Shown here piece after piece: positions 6,323 to 56,286 of a stretch of DNA of 64,000 bases. Made by a program: the position numbers and the translations under genes. Source of the DNA: an uncultured Paracoccaceae bacterium (GTDB lineage: Bacteria; Pseudomonadota; Alphaproteobacteria; Rhodobacterales; Rhodobacteraceae); NCBI GenBank assembly GCA_947500825.1, contig CANMTR010000001.1, positions 124,001 through 188,000 of the forward strand, read 5' to 3'. The notes under the pieces were generated by a model. It ran no database searches. It had not been told where the DNA came from and worked only from the letters and a program-made list of their open reading frames with translations. The first letter of the stretch is position 1. Each line of letters starts with the position of its first letter.

Positions 6323-6385
6323 GGCTAGCCCCATTGCTTGCTTGTGTCTTCAAAGGAAGGCGGGTGGCCCTTGGTTCCGCCCCGA

Positions 6386-22017: not shown

Positions 22018-22042
22018 GGAACCGTGAAGCTCACGGGCGGTT
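22018..22042 (+). promoter_or_regulatory. Putative EcfG-type (general stress) promoter for the YihY-family gene
   Basis: GGAAC (22018-22022), 16 bases, then GGTT (22039-22042), close to the EcfG consensus GGAAC-N16/17-CGTT and fully matching its -10 GTT core. It lies 37 bases before the ATG. One mismatch makes it weaker than the three exact sites in this window. Confidence 0.45.
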
Positions 22043-22078: not shown

Positions 22079-23032
22079 ATGGCCTCCACAGCAGCACGCG
22101 GCCGTCAGGCCCGAAATCCGAGCGAAATCCCCGCGAAAGGATGGCGCGACATCGCCTTCCGGGTCAAGGACGAGCTGACGCGCGACCACGTCTCGGTCGT
22201 GTCGGCCGGCGTCGCCTTCTTCGGGCTCCTGGCCCTGTTCCCGGCGATCGGCGCGCTGATCTCGATCACGGGCCTCTTCCTCGACCCGGGCGCGATCGAG
22301 TCGCAGCTCGAGAGCATCGCCTCGGTCCTGCCCCAGGACGCCGCCTCGATCCTGCAGGAGCAGGCGCAATCCGTGGCCTCCAATTCCGAGACGGGGCTGG
22401 GCCTCACCGCCCTCATCGGGGTCGTCCTGTCGCTCTACGGCGCCTCCAAGGGCATGAGCACCCTCATGGAGGGGATGAACATCGCCTATGACGAGGAAGA
22501 GGAGAGGGGGATCGTGAAGGGATACGCCGTCTCGTTCGCGCTGACCCTGGTCCTGATCCTGGGGCTGCTCATCGCGCTCGGCACCACGGTGGTCGTGCCC
22601 GCGCTGCTGGGGTCCCTGGGCCTGCCCGACATCGTGGTGACGCTGGTCGAATGGGGGCGCTGGCCGCTCCTCGCGCTCTTCACCGTCCTCGGTCTCTCGG
22701 TCCTCTACCGCTTCGGCCCCTCGCGGGAGGACCCCGAATGGCGCTGGGTGACGTGGGGGTCGGTGGTGGCGACGATCCTGTGGGTCGCGGGGTCGGTCGG
22801 GTTCTCGATCTACGTGCGCAACTTCGGCAGCTACGGCGAGTCCTACGGCGCGCTGGGCGGCGTCATCATCCTGCTCACTTGGCTCTGGCTGTCGGCCTAC
22901 ATCGTCCTGCTGGGGGCCGAGATCAATTCCGAGATGGAGCACCAGACGGAGCACGACACGACCACCGGGCGCGAGCGGCCGCAGGGCGAGCGCGGGGCCG
23001 TCAAGGCGGACGACACCGGAAAGTCCCCGTGA
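22079..23032 (+). CDS. YihY/virulence factor BrkB family inner-membrane protein
   Basis: A 317-residue polytopic membrane protein (formerly misnamed ribonuclease BN). After a short basic N-terminus come about six hydrophobic segments, with the family's FRVKDELTRDHVSVVSAGVAFF region near residue 27 and the conserved LLTWLWLSAYIVLLGAEIN helix near the end (segments shortened here). The hydrophilic C-terminal 35 residues are charged. Function is unresolved; a transport role is generally supposed. It is convergent with the M48 lipoprotein, and both have EcfG-like promoters. Confidence 0.85.
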   Translation: MASTAARGRQARNPSEIPAKGWRDIAFRVKDELTRDHVSVVSAGVAFFGLLALFPAIGALISITGLFLDPGAIESQLESIASVLPQDAASILQEQAQSVASNSETGLGLTALIGVVLSLYGASKGMSTLMEGMNIAYDEEEERGIVKGYAVSFALTLVLILGLLIALGTTVVVPALLGSLGLPDIVVTLVEWGRWPLLALFTVLGLSVLYRFGPSREDPEWRWVTWGSVVATILWVAGSVGFSIYVRNFGSYGESYGALGGVIILLTWLWLSAYIVLLGAEINSEMEHQTEHDTTTGRERPQGERGAVKADDTGKSP

Positions 23033-23083: not shown

Positions 23084-23827
23084 TCACATCGTCGCCAGGA
23101 TGCCCTCGATCTCCCTGATCCGGCTTTGCGGCGTGGGGTGGGTGGCCAGGAAGGCGGGCGCCCGGCCCTGGGAGGCCGCCTGCATCCGCTCCCACAGGGT
23201 CACCGCCTGGCGCGCGTCGTACCCCGCATCGGCCATCCGCCGCAGGCCCAGCTCGTCGGCCTCCAGTTCCTGCTCTCGCGAGAAGGGCAGCATCAGGCCC
23301 ACCTCCACCCCCAGCCCCATGGCCGCCGCGATCTCGTCGGCGAACTCGATGTCCCCGAGGTTGAGGAAGAACGCCACGATCCTCAGCCCCGCGTTCCGCG
23401 CGACCTCGGCGCTCATCCGCTCCTGGGCATGCTCGGCCGACAGGTGCCCGATCTCGTGGCCGACGATGGCGGCGAGCCGGTCGTCGGTATCGGCCACCTC
23501 GAACATCCCCTCGTAGACGCCGATCTTGCCCCCGGGCAGGGCGAAGGCGTTGGCCCGCTCGTCGGCGAAGACGCGCACCTCCCATTCCCCCGACGGCGCG
23601 CCCCCCGTCTCCAGCAGGCGCCGCGCCACCCGTTCCAGCGTCGCCTGCCGGGCGGCGTCGCGGCTGGTGGGCGTGCGCGCGGTGATCTGGTCCCACGCCT
23701 CCTGGCCCATCTCGGCGGCCTGCGCGTCCGAGACGAGGTTGGGCATCCGGTCGCAGCCCGCGAGCGCCACGGGGGCCGCGAGCGAGAGCGACAGGAACCT
23801 TCGGCGGCCGAGGCAGGTGGTACACAT
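23084..23827 (-). CDS. M48 family zinc metalloprotease lipoprotein
   Basis: A 247-residue periplasmic protease. The N-terminus RRRFLSLSLAAPVALAGC has a twin-Arg-like signal and a lipobox with Cys25, so it is lipid-anchored. The zinc site is HEIGH at residues 124-128, with the third ligand in EQELEADELG. Relatives (BepA/LoiP-like) act in envelope quality control. ATG 23827 was chosen because it places the signal peptide at the N-terminus; the frame continues upstream but only through GC-rich spacer. An exact EcfG-type promoter lies just upstream. Confidence 0.87.
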   Translation of the reverse strand: MCTTCLGRRRFLSLSLAAPVALAGCDRMPNLVSDAQAAEMGQEAWDQITARTPTSRDAARQATLERVARRLLETGGAPSGEWEVRVFADERANAFALPGGKIGVYEGMFEVADTDDRLAAIVGHEIGHLSAEHAQERMSAEVARNAGLRIVAFFLNLGDIEFADEIAAAMGLGVEVGLMLPFSREQELEADELGLRRMADAGYDARQAVTLWERMQAASQGRAPAFLATHPTPQSRIREIEGILATM

Positions 23828-23857: not shown

Positions 23858-23882
23858 AACGCCGCCGCGCCCGCGCCGTTCC
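23858..23882 (-). promoter_or_regulatory. EcfG-type (general stress) promoter for the M48 lipoprotein
   Basis: On the minus strand GGAAC (23882-23878), exactly 16 bases, then CGTT (23861-23858), an exact match to the alphaproteobacterial EcfG consensus. The CGTT ends 30 bases before the ATG at 23827, the right distance for a promoter. Confidence 0.6.
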
Positions 23883-51887: not shown

Positions 51888-51912
51888 GGAACGACCCCGA
51901 CCGACCTTCGTT
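51888..51912 (+). promoter_or_regulatory. EcfG-type (general stress) promoter for the SDR-SDR-GH13 operon
   Basis: GGAAC (51888-51892), exactly 16 bases, CGTT (51909-51912), an exact match to the alphaproteobacterial general stress consensus. The ATG of the first dehydrogenase gene lies 33 bases downstream. Confidence 0.65.
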
Positions 51913-51945
51913 GCCCGGGCGACGGAACACGAAGGAAAGTCGATC

Positions 51946-52740
51946 ATGGACCTGAAGATCAAGGGAAAGAACGTCCTCGTCACGGGCGGCAGCGGCGGGA
52001 TCGCGGCTGCGGCGGCGAAGATCCTGCACGAGGAGGGGGCGAACCTGACCCTGACGGACATGGACGCCGACGGCGTTGCCGCCTCTGCCGCGAACGTGGG
52101 TTCCGACGTGGACAGCACCGCCGCCGACCTCACCGATACGGCCGATATCGACCGGCTGGCGAAGATGATGGAGGAGAAGGGCGGCTGCGACATCCTCGTC
52201 CACGCCGCGGGCGTGACGGGCGAGAAGGGCGACCCGCTCGACATGACCGACGACGAGTACCACCGGGTGTGGGAGACGAACTTCATGTCCGCCGTGCGCA
52301 TGGCCAAGCGCATGATCCCCCAGATGGTGGAGAAGGGCTGGGGCCGGATGGTCTGCGTCACCTCCGAGAACGCGGTCCAGCCCTACTGGGACGAGGCGGT
52401 CTACAACACGTCGAAGGCAGCCCTCCTGAACTGGATCAAGGGCGCGAGCTTCGTCTACGGGCCCAAGGGCGTGCTGATGAACACCGTGGCGCCCGCCTTC
52501 GTTGAAAGCCCGATGACCGACGGCATGATGGACATGCGCGCCGACAGCATGGGCGTCTCCAAGGAGGAGGCGATCGAGAGCTTCCTCGAGGAGGAGCGCC
52601 CCTACCTGACGCTGAAGCGGCGCGGCCAGCCCGAGGAGGTCGCCTCGGTGATCGCGCTTCTGGTCTCCGACCGGGCGACGTTCACCAACGGCTCGGCCTA
52701 CCGCGTGGACGGCGGCGCCGTCGCGGCGATGAACACCTGA
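51946..52740 (+). CDS. Short-chain dehydrogenase/reductase
   Basis: A 264-residue NAD(P)-dependent oxidoreductase. The cofactor motif TGGSGGIA is at residues 15-22, with the final Gly of TGxxxGIG replaced by Ala. The catalytic tetrad is present: Ser in VCVTSENAV and YNTSK for Tyr and Lys. Substrate unknown. AAGGAAA precedes the ATG. It is first in a unit with a second SDR and a GH13 enzyme, behind an exact EcfG-type promoter. Confidence 0.85.
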   Translation: MDLKIKGKNVLVTGGSGGIAAAAAKILHEEGANLTLTDMDADGVAASAANVGSDVDSTAADLTDTADIDRLAKMMEEKGGCDILVHAAGVTGEKGDPLDMTDDEYHRVWETNFMSAVRMAKRMIPQMVEKGWGRMVCVTSENAVQPYWDEAVYNTSKAALLNWIKGASFVYGPKGVLMNTVAPAFVESPMTDGMMDMRADSMGVSKEEAIESFLEEERPYLTLKRRGQPEEVASVIALLVSDRATFTNGSAYRVDGGAVAAMNT

Positions 52741-52793
52741 CCTGACGACGGGCGGCCCGTCGCGGCCGCCCCTGCGACCCAAGAGGATTTACC

Positions 52794-53645
52794 ATGACCG
52801 AGAACGCAACCGACCGCGTGCAAGAGCGGATGCCCGCCCACGAGCACAAGATGGACCCCGCGCCCGACTATACCCCCCGCTTTCCGGGCGTTGGCAAGTT
52901 GAAGGACCGCGTCGCCCTGATCACCGGCGGCGACAGCGGCATCGGCCGCGCCGTCTCCGTCCTCTTCGCGCGGGAGGGGGCGAAGGTCGCCATCGCCTAT
53001 CTCGACGAGGACACGGACGCCGAGGAGACGAAGCGCTTGGTCGAGGCGGAGGGGAGCGAGGCGCTCCTGATCCCCGGCGACCTGGGCGCCAAGGAGAACG
53101 CCACCGCCGCCGTGGAGAAGACGGTGGAACGGTTCGGCCAGCTCGACATCCTCGTGAACAACGCCGCCCAGCAGTGGATCGACGCGCCCATCGAGGATCA
53201 GCTCGACGAGGAGCAGCTTCGCCGGATCATGGATTCGAACGTGATGAGCTACGTCTTCACCACGCAGGCGGCGCTGAAGCACATGGAGAGCGGTGCGACG
53301 ATCGTGAACACCACGAGCGTCAACGCCTTCAAGGGCAACGACATGCTGGTGGGCTATTCCACCACCCGCGGTGCGAGCCTCGCGTTCAGCCGCTCCATGG
53401 CGTCGAACCTGGTTGACCGGGGCATCCGCGTGAACGCCGTCGCCCCCGGGCCGGTCTGGACGCCCTTCATCGAGGGCTCGATGCCGCCCGAGATGGTGAA
53501 GGATTTCGGCGAGGGCTCCCCCATGAGCCGGGCCGGCCAGCCGTGGGAGATCGCGACCTGCTACCTGTTCCTGGCCAGCTCGGACGGGTCGTTCTTCACC
53601 GGCCAGACCCTGCACCCGAACGGGGGCATGATCGTTGGCGCTTGA
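52794..53645 (+). CDS. Short-chain dehydrogenase/reductase, YghA/general-stress type, catalytic Lys replaced by Arg
   Basis: A 283-residue SDR with the ~40-residue N-terminal extension (MPAHEHKMDPAPDYTP) typical of the YghA/GsiB-neighbour stress group. Cofactor motif TGGDSGIG and NNAA are intact. The catalytic YxxxK motif reads YSTTR (VGYSTTRGASLAF), so the Lys that orients the cofactor is Arg. It may have altered or no redox activity. AGAGGA precedes the ATG. Relatives are induced by salt, starvation or oxidative stress. Confidence 0.87.
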   Translation: MTENATDRVQERMPAHEHKMDPAPDYTPRFPGVGKLKDRVALITGGDSGIGRAVSVLFAREGAKVAIAYLDEDTDAEETKRLVEAEGSEALLIPGDLGAKENATAAVEKTVERFGQLDILVNNAAQQWIDAPIEDQLDEEQLRRIMDSNVMSYVFTTQAALKHMESGATIVNTTSVNAFKGNDMLVGYSTTRGASLAFSRSMASNLVDRGIRVNAVAPGPVWTPFIEGSMPPEMVKDFGEGSPMSRAGQPWEIATCYLFLASSDGSFFTGQTLHPNGGMIVGA

Positions 53646-55233
53646 GGGCGCTTGGCCCGAGGCTCCCGTCGTCTATGCCGTCTATCCCCGGTCGTTCAAC
53701 GACACGACCGGGTCCGGCGTGGGCGACCTCAACGGCATCACCGAGCGGCTCGACCACATCGCGTCCCTGAACGTGGACGCGATCTGGGTCTGCCCGTTCT
53801 ACGTCTCGCCCTTGGCCGACGGGGGCTACGACGTGGCCGACCACCGCGCCGTGGCCGAGCGCCACGGCACGATCGAGGATTTCGACCGCCTGGTGGAGGC
53901 CGCTCACGCGCGCGGCCTGCGGGTGATCGTCGATCAGGTGTTCAACCACACCAGCATCGACCACCCGTGGTTCCAGGCCTCCATCGAGGGCGACGCGGAG
54001 AAGGCCGAATGCTATGTCTGGCGCGACCCGAAGCCCGACGGAACCCCGCCCAACAACTGGATCAGCCAGTTCGGGCCCCCCGCCTGGACGTGGAACCATC
54101 GCCGTCAGCAATATTACCACCACCAGTTCCTGTCCGCTCAGCCGAACCTGAACCTGCGCCACCCGCTGGTGCAGCGCATGTACCGCGAGACGATCGAGTT
54201 CTGGCAGGAGCGGGGCGTCGACGGGTTCCGCCTCGACGTGGTGACGGCCTACCTGTTCGACCCCGAGATGCCGGACAACCCTCCCGCGCGGCCGGTCGTG
54301 CTGTCCAAGGTCACCGGCCCCAATCACAATCCATACTCCTACCAGGACCATGTCCACGACCTGCTGCCGGGCGACGGTGCGGACTACACGAACCGAATTC
54401 GTAAATGGGCGGGCGACGACGCCTGGATCGTAGGTGAGAGCAACACCGGCAACAACTCGGTCGATATATCCAAGAGCTTCACCGAGGAGGGACGGCTCGA
54501 CGCGTGCTACACCACCGACCCGATGAACGTGGCACGCGACCCCGTGGCGCTCGCGGACATGCTCAAGGCGCTCGACGGGCGCTGGTGCGCGCCGTGGTGG
54601 TTCTCCTCCCACGATCAGCCGCGCCACCTCTCGGCGCTGGGCGACGGAACCGACGCGTGCGCGCGGTTCTTTGCCACACTGCTCGCGGTCCTGCCGGGCG
54701 CCGCGATCCTGTGGCAGGGAGAGGAGCTGGGCCTGCCCCAACCCGACCTGTCGAAGGCGGAAACGACAGACCCGCTCGACCTGCTATACTGGCCCGACGG
54801 GCCGGGGCGGGAGGGTGCCCGCGTTCCCATGCCATGGGCGGCGGAGGCGAAGAATTACGGCTTCTCCGACGGCACCCCGTGGCTTCCCATGCGGTGGGAG
54901 GCGGACCGGGCCGTCGACGCGCAGGATGCCCACGCGGAGAGCGTCCTGAACTACTATCGCCGCGCCATGGCGTTCCGCCGCGACACGCGCATCGCCGCAC
55001 CGGACAAGGTGCAGGTGGACGCGTCTCCTACGGTGCTTGCCTTGCGGATCGCGAAGGGCGAGCACGCCTGGCTCGCCGTCTTCAACTTCTCTGAAGACGA
55101 ATCCCTTCCCGTCCCGACCCGGCAGGGAACGCCGCCCGCGCTCGAGACGGGATGGGACGGGCGGCGCCTGCTCCCCTGGGGCGCGGCCGTCTGGGACGGC
55201 GTCGCGGAGGAGGGCGAGACGATCTGCGGCTGA
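53635..55233 (+). CDS. GH13 family alpha-glucosidase-type glycoside hydrolase
   Basis: A 532-residue enzyme acting on alpha-glucosidic bonds. The (beta/alpha)8 domain begins VVYAVYPRSFNDTTGSGVG; the nucleophile Asp is in GFRLDVV, the acid/base Glu in WIVGESNTG and the transition-state Asp in SSHDQPRHL. A short C-terminal beta domain ends the protein. The only start giving this N-terminus is TTG 53635, 11 bases inside the previous gene and preceded by GGGGG, so translation is coupled. It may make or degrade an osmoprotective glucoside, by inference from its stress-type neighbours. Confidence 0.88.
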   Translation: MALEGAWPEAPVVYAVYPRSFNDTTGSGVGDLNGITERLDHIASLNVDAIWVCPFYVSPLADGGYDVADHRAVAERHGTIEDFDRLVEAAHARGLRVIVDQVFNHTSIDHPWFQASIEGDAEKAECYVWRDPKPDGTPPNNWISQFGPPAWTWNHRRQQYYHHQFLSAQPNLNLRHPLVQRMYRETIEFWQERGVDGFRLDVVTAYLFDPEMPDNPPARPVVLSKVTGPNHNPYSYQDHVHDLLPGDGADYTNRIRKWAGDDAWIVGESNTGNNSVDISKSFTEEGRLDACYTTDPMNVARDPVALADMLKALDGRWCAPWWFSSHDQPRHLSALGDGTDACARFFATLLAVLPGAAILWQGEELGLPQPDLSKAETTDPLDLLYWPDGPGREGARVPMPWAAEAKNYGFSDGTPWLPMRWEADRAVDAQDAHAESVLNYYRRAMAFRRDTRIAAPDKVQVDASPTVLALRIAKGEHAWLAVFNFSEDESLPVPTRQGTPPALETGWDGRRLLPWGAAVWDGVAEEGETICG

Positions 55234-55256
55234 AGGGGGGGCAGGGCCCCCTCGCC

Positions 55257-56231
55257 TCAGTCCAGAAGGCCGCCAAGGATCAGCCCCAGGAGAACGCCGA
55301 TCCCCACCGCGCCGCCGAAGGCGATGTAGCGCGCCCGGTCGCCGTTTATCGTGACGGCGCTGTCGCTGGCCCGCGACCCGAAGGAGCCGCGCGCGCCGGC
55401 TTCGCGGGGGGCGGGGCCCATCAGGTTGTCGGGGCGGCCTCCGGGCTCGTCGGTCTCGGACTTCTGCATCTCGGCCCCGTCTTTCGACAGCTTCCGGTCG
55501 AGCCAGTCCGGCGCCACGAAATTGCCGAAGACGAGCTTGAGGACCGAGCTGCCCACAAAGATCTCGCGCGCGTCGGTGTCGAGGGCCTTCATCACCGCGC
55601 GGGCCGCCACCTCGGGCTGGAAGATCGGCGGCGCGGGCTGGGGCTTCTTGCCCAGCCGGTTCAGCGCCCAGTCGAATTGCGGCGTGTTGAGGGCGGGCAG
55701 CTGCACCAGCGACAGGGTCACGGGACGCCCCTCGCGCAGAAGCTCCGACCGCAGCGCGGCGGTAAAGCCGTTGATCCCGTGCTTGGCCGCGCAATAGGCC
55801 GCCTGGAACGGGACGGGGCGATAGCCCAGCCCGCTGCCGACATTGACGATATTGCCGCGGGGCATGTGCCGCAGCGCCAGGCGGGTGCCGTTCACCTGGC
55901 CCAGCAGCGTCGTGCGCACGATGCGGTCGAACTCCTCCGCGCTCACCTTCTCGAACGGCGAGAAGCTCGTCTGCATGGCCGAGTTGATCCAGACGGATGG
56001 CGTGCCGATGCGCTCCACCAGGGCGTCCACGGCCCCCTCCAGCGCGGCGGCGTCGCCCACGTCGGCCGCTTCGGTGGCGAGCGCGCCCCCGAACCTGCTC
56101 TCCATCTGCGACAGGCGGTCCGCGCCGCGCGCGACCGCGCCGACGCGGTAGCCGCGCGCGATCAGTGCCTCGACCACGGCGTGGCCTACGCCGGCGCTGG
56201 CGCCGAGGACGATAGCGGATTTCTGGGACAT
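55257..56231 (-). CDS. Short-chain dehydrogenase/reductase with C-terminal membrane anchor
   Basis: A 324-residue SDR. The cofactor motif GASAGVG is at residues 10-16; the NAG-like motif reads INSAM, the catalytic Ser lies in VNVGSGLGY and Tyr/Lys in YCAAKHG. After the ~250-residue catalytic core a linker leads to one hydrophobic helix (about 302-322), which would tether it to the membrane. GCAGGAG precedes the ATG. It converges on the GH13 gene and has its own exact EcfG-type promoter. Confidence 0.85.
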   Translation of the reverse strand: MSQKSAIVLGASAGVGHAVVEALIARGYRVGAVARGADRLSQMESRFGGALATEAADVGDAAALEGAVDALVERIGTPSVWINSAMQTSFSPFEKVSAEEFDRIVRTTLLGQVNGTRLALRHMPRGNIVNVGSGLGYRPVPFQAAYCAAKHGINGFTAALRSELLREGRPVTLSLVQLPALNTPQFDWALNRLGKKPQPAPPIFQPEVAARAVMKALDTDAREIFVGSSVLKLVFGNFVAPDWLDRKLSKDGAEMQKSETDEPGGRPDNLMGPAPREAGARGSFGSRASDSAVTINGDRARYIAFGGAVGIGVLLGLILGGLLD

Positions 56232-56261
56232 CGGGGCATCTCCTGCGTGACGTTTCCGCCC

Positions 56262-56286
56262 AACGGCAGGGGGACGGCCGCGTTCC
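56262..56286 (-). promoter_or_regulatory. EcfG-type (general stress) promoter for the membrane-anchored SDR
   Basis: On the minus strand GGAAC (56286-56282), exactly 16 bases, CGTT (56265-56262). The start codon at 56231 is 30 bases beyond. It lies immediately after the stop of the upstream glutathione S-transferase gene. Confidence 0.65.

Follow-up and report, generated by a model that had tools for sequence, protein, structure and literature searches.

Putative EcfG-type promoters flank a convergent group of three short-chain dehydrogenase genes and a GH13 gene in a Palleronia-like bacterium

The closest described counterparts of the system considered here are the PhyR-NepR-EcfG general stress regulons of Alphaproteobacteria, known from Sphingomonas melonis, Sphingopyxis granuli and Bradyrhizobium diazoefficiens. 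In Sphingopyxis granuli the motif GGAAC-N16-CGTT is named and stands before nepR2 (PMC7083833). EcfG is already known to control sugar-solute genes (PMC8092242, PMC6599016): trehalose synthesis is under its control in B. diazoefficiens (PMC8092242), and the list of EcfG-dependent genes in S. melonis includes PRC-barrel, catalase, 'Glycosidases' and CoxLMS entries (PMC6599016). In Rhodobacter sphaeroides, PhyR reportedly plays no major part in general stress (PMC5830050). Here we analyse 64,000 nucleotides (the window) from the genome of an uncultured Paracoccaceae bacterium, in which two exact copies of GGAAC-N16-CGTT face each other across the genes for three short-chain dehydrogenases (SDR1, SDR2 and SDR3) and one GH13 enzyme. 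The genome shares with the regulons of Sphingomonas, Sphingopyxis and Bradyrhizobium the same three regulators, predicted promoters of the same form and a set of stress genes. From the position of the sites, the genome-wide enrichment of the motif, its conservation before SDR1, the presence of phyR, nepR and ecfG, and the joint occurrence of the SDRs and NepR, we conclude that the two sites are very probably promoters of the general stress sigma factor EcfG, of the extracytoplasmic function (ECF) group ECF15.

The assembly that holds the window comprises 3.93 Mb in 247 contigs. SDR1 (51946..52740, + strand, ATG start at 51946) encodes a classical short-chain dehydrogenase of 264 residues, with Pfam PF13561/PF00106 and a YNTSK motif. 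Its closest named relatives, at 70-85% identity, belong to Palleronia species and an uncultured Rhodobacteraceae bacterium; relatives in Kushneria, Pseudomonas and Bacteroidota are 43-55% identical. SDR2 (52794..53645, +) encodes 283 residues with a Pfam SDR match and PRK06701 as its nearest NCBIfam model, and in place of the classical Tyr-x-x-x-Lys (YxxxK) has Y-S-T-T-R. The GH13 gene (53635..55233, +) encodes 532 residues from a TTG start, with a Pfam alpha-amylase catalytic domain; the start codon is uncertain, and TTG at 53635 would give an 11-base overlap with the end of SDR2. SDR3 (55257..56231, - strand, ATG start at 56231; 324 residues, NCBIfam PRK07109 subfamily) converges on the GH13 gene across a gap of 23 bases, and the hydrophobic segment at its C terminus (residues 305-323), with a mean Kyte-Doolittle value of 2.2, is consistent with a membrane anchor. 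In the Pfam scan, three of the enclosed genes matched SDR families and the fourth an alpha-amylase catalytic domain. Together with the hydrophobic C terminus, this bears out the gene content proposed in an earlier, sequence-only reading of the window: two SDRs and a GH13 enzyme on one strand and a membrane-anchored SDR on the other.

The site before SDR1 (51888..51912, +) and the site before SDR3 (56262..56286, -) are both intergenic and exact, with the -35 box GGAAC, the -10 box CGTT and a spacer within the 16-17 bases of EcfG regulon promoters. Between the -10 box and the ATG lie 33 bases at SDR1 and 30 at SDR3. The two sites are thus where the sequence-only reading had placed them. That reading also held such a pair to be unlikely by chance. 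Exact matches averaged 0.23 per shuffled window, and the three present in the window were reached in 1 of 100 shuffles; the fact that two of them bound one block is not special, given some 35 promoter-like matches genome-wide.

Across the genome the motif was compared with its reversed pattern as a control. Gene starts, and the classification of every match to either pattern, come from a home-made gene caller that had learned codon usage from the window. The raw excess is modest (51 motif matches versus 34 reversed), and the difference lies in placement. Intergenic positions account for 41/51 motif matches versus 11/34 reversed ones (Fisher P 1e-5), and 35/51 versus 5/34 are both intergenic and at most 150 bases from a same-strand start (Fisher P 7e-7), so that the enrichment before genes named as a check by the earlier reading was found. 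Distances to the start are 26-40 bases for 22 of the 35 promoter-like matches. Thirty of the 35 downstream proteins were Pfam-scanned as a set, with SDR1, SDR3 and NepR scanned separately and two others (L015, L254) left out; within the set of 30, 25 proteins gave a match. Genes downstream of promoter-like sites include CsbD, DUF892, DJ-1/PfpI, OsmC, Cu/Zn superoxide dismutase and ExoD, as well as CHAD, aldo/keto reductase, M48 peptidase, a further SDR and GSDH.

The site is also conserved before SDR1 in relatives. Across 17 SDR1 family loci (the window, 5 named and 11 others), the 100 bases upstream hold an exact site in 9 and, with one mismatch allowed, a site in 14, where shuffles of the same DNA gave 0.03 and 0.57. 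Among eight SDR3 loci, the window included, the corresponding counts are 2 and 4 (shuffles 0.00 and 0.11). The SDR1 orthologues of Pseudomonas, Kushneria and Bacteroidota have the site in 0 of 13 cases.

PhyR, NepR and an EcfG-type sigma factor, for which the sequence-only reading had advised a search, are all encoded at one locus of the genome, which has a single NepR match (G000:C4:68957-69058). There phyR lies on one strand, and nepR, an ECF sigma factor gene and a membrane protein gene lie on the other. The layout is that of the R. sphaeroides PhyR locus RSP_1274, where phyR faces a nepR-like gene and ecfG (PMC5830050). Pfam matches at the locus are PF18557 for NepR, PF22029, PF22233 and Response_reg for PhyR, and sigma regions 2 and 4. 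The best solved match of the sigma factor is 5uxx (named RNA polymerase sigma factor); that of PhyR is 9by5, and 3n0r and 4qic also rank near the top for it. The membrane protein beside ecfG, incomplete because the stretch ends inside its gene, has a weak Cache match (23 of 45 bits) and may be a sensor. An exact GGAAC-N16-CGTT stands directly upstream of nepR (L018). The phyR/nepR gap (L031, 1679-1709) is near-palindromic, the exact nepR-ward site overlapping a GGAAC-N16-GGTT that faces phyR, which suggests overlapping divergent promoters.

To relate the enzymes to these regulators we used a family sample of 198 genomes from 197 genera, of which 89 have NepR (87 above the curated cut-off). At cut-offs of E<=1e-60 for SDR1, E<=1e-70 for SDR2 and E<=1e-60 for SDR3, there were 13, 21 and 10 carriers, all NepR-positive (hypergeometric P 2e-5, 1e-8 and 3e-4, phylogeny ignored). 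GH13 homologues (E<=1e-100) are found in 130/198 genomes, NepR-negative ones included; matches with E below 1e-140 are confined to six genomes, all NepR-positive. NepR-positive genomes also have more motif matches per reversed-pattern match (median log2 ratio -0.31 vs -0.99, P 3e-7), with the highest value, 0.88, in the 16 genomes that carry SDR1 or SDR3.

The same enzymes keep recurring in one another's company. SDR1, SDR2 and GH13 stand together in the window and five near relatives (L032, L033, L034, L035, L106); the convergent SDR3 follows them in L034 and L106 and is absent from the site in L032, L033 and L035. Other genera show other arrangements: SDR1 and SDR3 convergent to SDR2 and GH13 (G058), SDR3-SDR2-GH13 with SDR1 a few kilobases off (G035), SDR2-GH13 adjoined by SDR1 (G006), SDR2-GH13 near one nepR-ecfG pair (G065), and SDR1 and SDR3 close to one of two nepR loci (G047).

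Gene neighbourhoods were examined in 15 other genera, and 5 of them have trehalose or glycogen genes next to SDR1 or SDR2; the carrier genomes G018, G022, G051, G119, G159 and G183 stand outside this count. These neighbours are TreZ, TreY and GlgX in G107; TreY and TreZ in G088; TreY, TreZ (just below the cut-off as called), GlgP, GlgB, GlgC, GlgA and GlgX in G149; TreY and GlgX in G006; and OtsA, an OtsB-like protein and TreZ in G150. The SDR2 homologue is just 47-52% identical in G088, G149 and G150. No such genes were seen beside the cluster in the window, the five near relatives or the other ten genera, where protein starts were read with no family scan. Elsewhere in the window's genome, treY (above its cut-off) forms part of a treZ-treY-glgX-like run (L295), in which treZ and glgX were named by reading the sequence. 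The 150 bases before treZ, the first gene of the run, hold no site with up to one mismatch, and glgX carries a one-mismatch site. There are also two OtsA-like genes, both below the OtsA cut-off. Another trehalose-SDR neighbourhood of this genome is L296 (G000:C64), where an OtsA-like gene, a likely OtsB gene, an alcohol-dehydrogenase-like gene and a pair of SDR-like genes stand in that order, names other than OtsA coming from sequence reading. Outside Alphaproteobacteria, the neighbours of SDR1 share no theme in the 8 of 13 loci considered; beyond that, GlgA lies near one Pseudomonas SDR1, and alpha/beta-hydrolase-like genes occur in some of the non-alphaproteobacterial loci.

Several observations weigh against assigning the two sites to EcfG. 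Three of the 17 SDR1 loci (L034, L271, L284) lack a site in the 100 bases considered, four of the eight SDR3 loci have none even at one mismatch, and the SDR1 and SDR3 loci are mutually related rather than independent events. The NepR co-occurrence test ignores phylogeny and depends on the E-value cut-offs that we set. Composition has a strong influence on raw motif counts (G006 has 54 motif and 169 reversed matches) and on the ratio of motif to reversed matches, and the median NepR-positive genome, with its log2 ratio of -0.31, has fewer motif than reversed-pattern matches. A simple scan found no terminator between the convergent GH13 and SDR3 genes. Some genes downstream of the 35 promoter-like matches, such as those for an NADH dehydrogenase subunit and a MarR regulator, are doubtful stress genes, and because of this the 35 probably contain false positives. 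With 51 matches against 34 for the reversed pattern, a good share of the genome-wide matches may indeed be chance. That the two flanking matches are chance is another matter, because nine exact sites were found before the 17 SDR1 loci where 0.03 were expected; promoter-like placement and SDR1-upstream conservation lead us to reject this explanation as extremely improbable. GGAAC-like -35 boxes are common to several ECF groups, so that a different ECF sigma factor reading such boxes might use the sites. This we consider very unlikely, since the SDR carriers found are all NepR-positive and the same -35/-10 pair stands before nepR, as it does before nepR2 of Sphingopyxis granuli (PMC7083833).

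If the sites are EcfG promoters, the enzymes may still have unrelated jobs. Genes recruited singly, for aldehyde clearance, membrane-linked reduction and alpha-glucoside cleavage, could have gathered in stress islands that account for the neighbourhood. This alternative competes with a joint pathway and not with the promoters, and we give it an even chance. It would explain why SDR3 is missing from the cluster site in three relatives, why SDR1, SDR2 and SDR3 are also found apart in other surroundings, and why several loci adjoin the general stress genes CsbD, DUF892 and nepR-ecfG. It sits poorly with the adjacency of SDR2 and GH13, which is kept in the window, its five near relatives, G006, G035, G058 and G065, and because of which a step shared by at least these two enzymes is likely. 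The sequence-only reading had inferred a stress-induced block whose four enzymes act together, perhaps on an osmolyte. Its regulatory half is well supported by the presence of the regulators and the enrichment of the motif; the joint action on an osmolyte is just hinted at. Regrouping in other genera and the trehalose or glycogen neighbours in 5/15 of them speak for concerted action, and the absence of SDR3 from 3/5 near relatives, and of any trehalose gene beside the cluster in the window or these five, speaks against it. That the enzymes share a role close to trehalose, glycogen or some other glucoside is a possibility that we entertain tentatively. We prefer to read them as putative stress carbohydrate and carbonyl enzymes that tend to travel together.

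The best solved relative of the GH13 enzyme is 3wy1, with 6aav and 7voh also among the best; these are the Halomonas sp. H11 alpha-glucosidase, XgtA and QsGH13 (PMC8928221). The match to 3wy1 and 6aav spans about 500 residues. The three catalytic acidic residues of 3wy1 and of the alpha-glucosyltransferase XgtA (6aav) are kept. Following the nucleophile, however, the window enzyme has D-x-[VI]-T where both have D-x-[VI]-N, and it has V where 3wy1 has T and 6aav A. Going by its title, Ojima et al. 2012 reportedly made alpha-glucosylglycerol with the Halomonas enzyme; the title is silent on a natural role. A tree of 30 sequences splits the 10 cluster GH13s from the 20 others with 100/100 support, one cluster member (L191) having a long branch, and so places the window enzyme in a separate clade of alpha-glucosidase relatives. 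D-x-[VI]-T occurs in 10/10 cluster GH13s and D-x-[VI]-N in 22/22 readable others. The residue after the nucleophile is V or A in 10/10 cluster enzymes, and T in 20/22 other relatives, with one S (L206, L208, L211 and L215 gave no reading). A Val/Thr rule separates isomaltase from maltase (PMC6981392); we make no claim of 1,6-specificity on this rule, the genome's own paralogue L291 also having V. Assignment as the trehalose synthase TreS (236.6 of 678 bits) or the phosphotrehalase TreC (303.2 of 799 bits) was rejected, both scores lying below the NCBIfam cut-offs.

SDR2 aligns over nearly its full length with PRK06701 and the solved relative 3i3o/3ijr; it scores 361.4 bits, under the cut-off of 413, and differs in having Arg for the catalytic Lys. 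Among the nine copies of at least 65% identity (the window and L166-L173), eight have Arg and one (G066) has Lys; the SDR2 proteins of Palleronia rufa and P. abyssalis have Lys. The copy in G154 (L172) is of the Arg form and has lost the Tyr too. SDR3 passes the PRK07109 cut-off (333.2 bits against 264). A more specific proposal, which we regard as speculative and rather unlikely, is a hitherto undescribed Rhodobacteraceae stress-solute module: the divergent GH13 enzyme would act as a transglucosylase that puts glucose from glycogen- or trehalose-derived sugars on a small acceptor, the SDRs would make or recycle that acceptor, and the YxxxR of SDR2 would reflect a changed or non-redox role.

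By analogy with the known system, stress would lead to phosphorylation of PhyR, which would then bind NepR. Through this partner switch EcfG would be set free, and RNA polymerase with EcfG would transcribe SDR1-SDR2-GH13 as a single transcript from the + strand site. SDR3 would be induced from the - strand site, its transcription converging with that of the other three genes on the 23-base gap.

Further sites occur in the window. A third exact site (23858..23882, -), absent from the sequence-only reading, precedes the gene for an M48 peptidase (23084-23827) by 30 bases. The one-mismatch site GGAAC-N16-GGTT (22018..22042, +), weak alone, lies 36 bases before a BrkB-family gene (22079-23032); relatives of this gene near SDR clusters carry an exact (L034) or one-mismatch (L274) site. 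Also weak alone is the one-mismatch site GGAAC-N17-CCTT (6353..6378, -), which precedes the operon of a three-subunit molybdenum hydroxylase (6322-2656) by 30 bases. A similar operon adjoins SDR2 in G177 (L303), and the CoxLMS genes on the S. melonis EcfG-dependent list are CO-dehydrogenase-like (PMC6599016).

Looking across the comparison with known systems, the kind of control is best read as ordinary, with EcfG promoters that serve a small group of enzyme genes in an alphaproteobacterial general stress regulon. Within the literature searched, what seems new is the gene set, its NepR company in the sample, and the odd GH13 and SDR2. The SDR1-SDR2-GH13 set is unnamed in the accessible main texts of PMC6599016 and PMC7083833, in which 'short-chain' and 'glucosidase' have 0 occurrences (supplements lay outside this search). 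Among titles and the beginnings of abstracts, with subscription papers mostly outside the search, we found no report on this gene set or on the general stress response of Palleronia. Three SDRs whose carriers are all NepR-positive, and a separate GH13 clade linked to one of them, are candidates for a stress solute pathway. Whereas no major role in general stress was reported for PhyR of R. sphaeroides (PMC5830050), the EcfG regulon that our analysis predicts for this Palleronia-like relative of that species looks broad.

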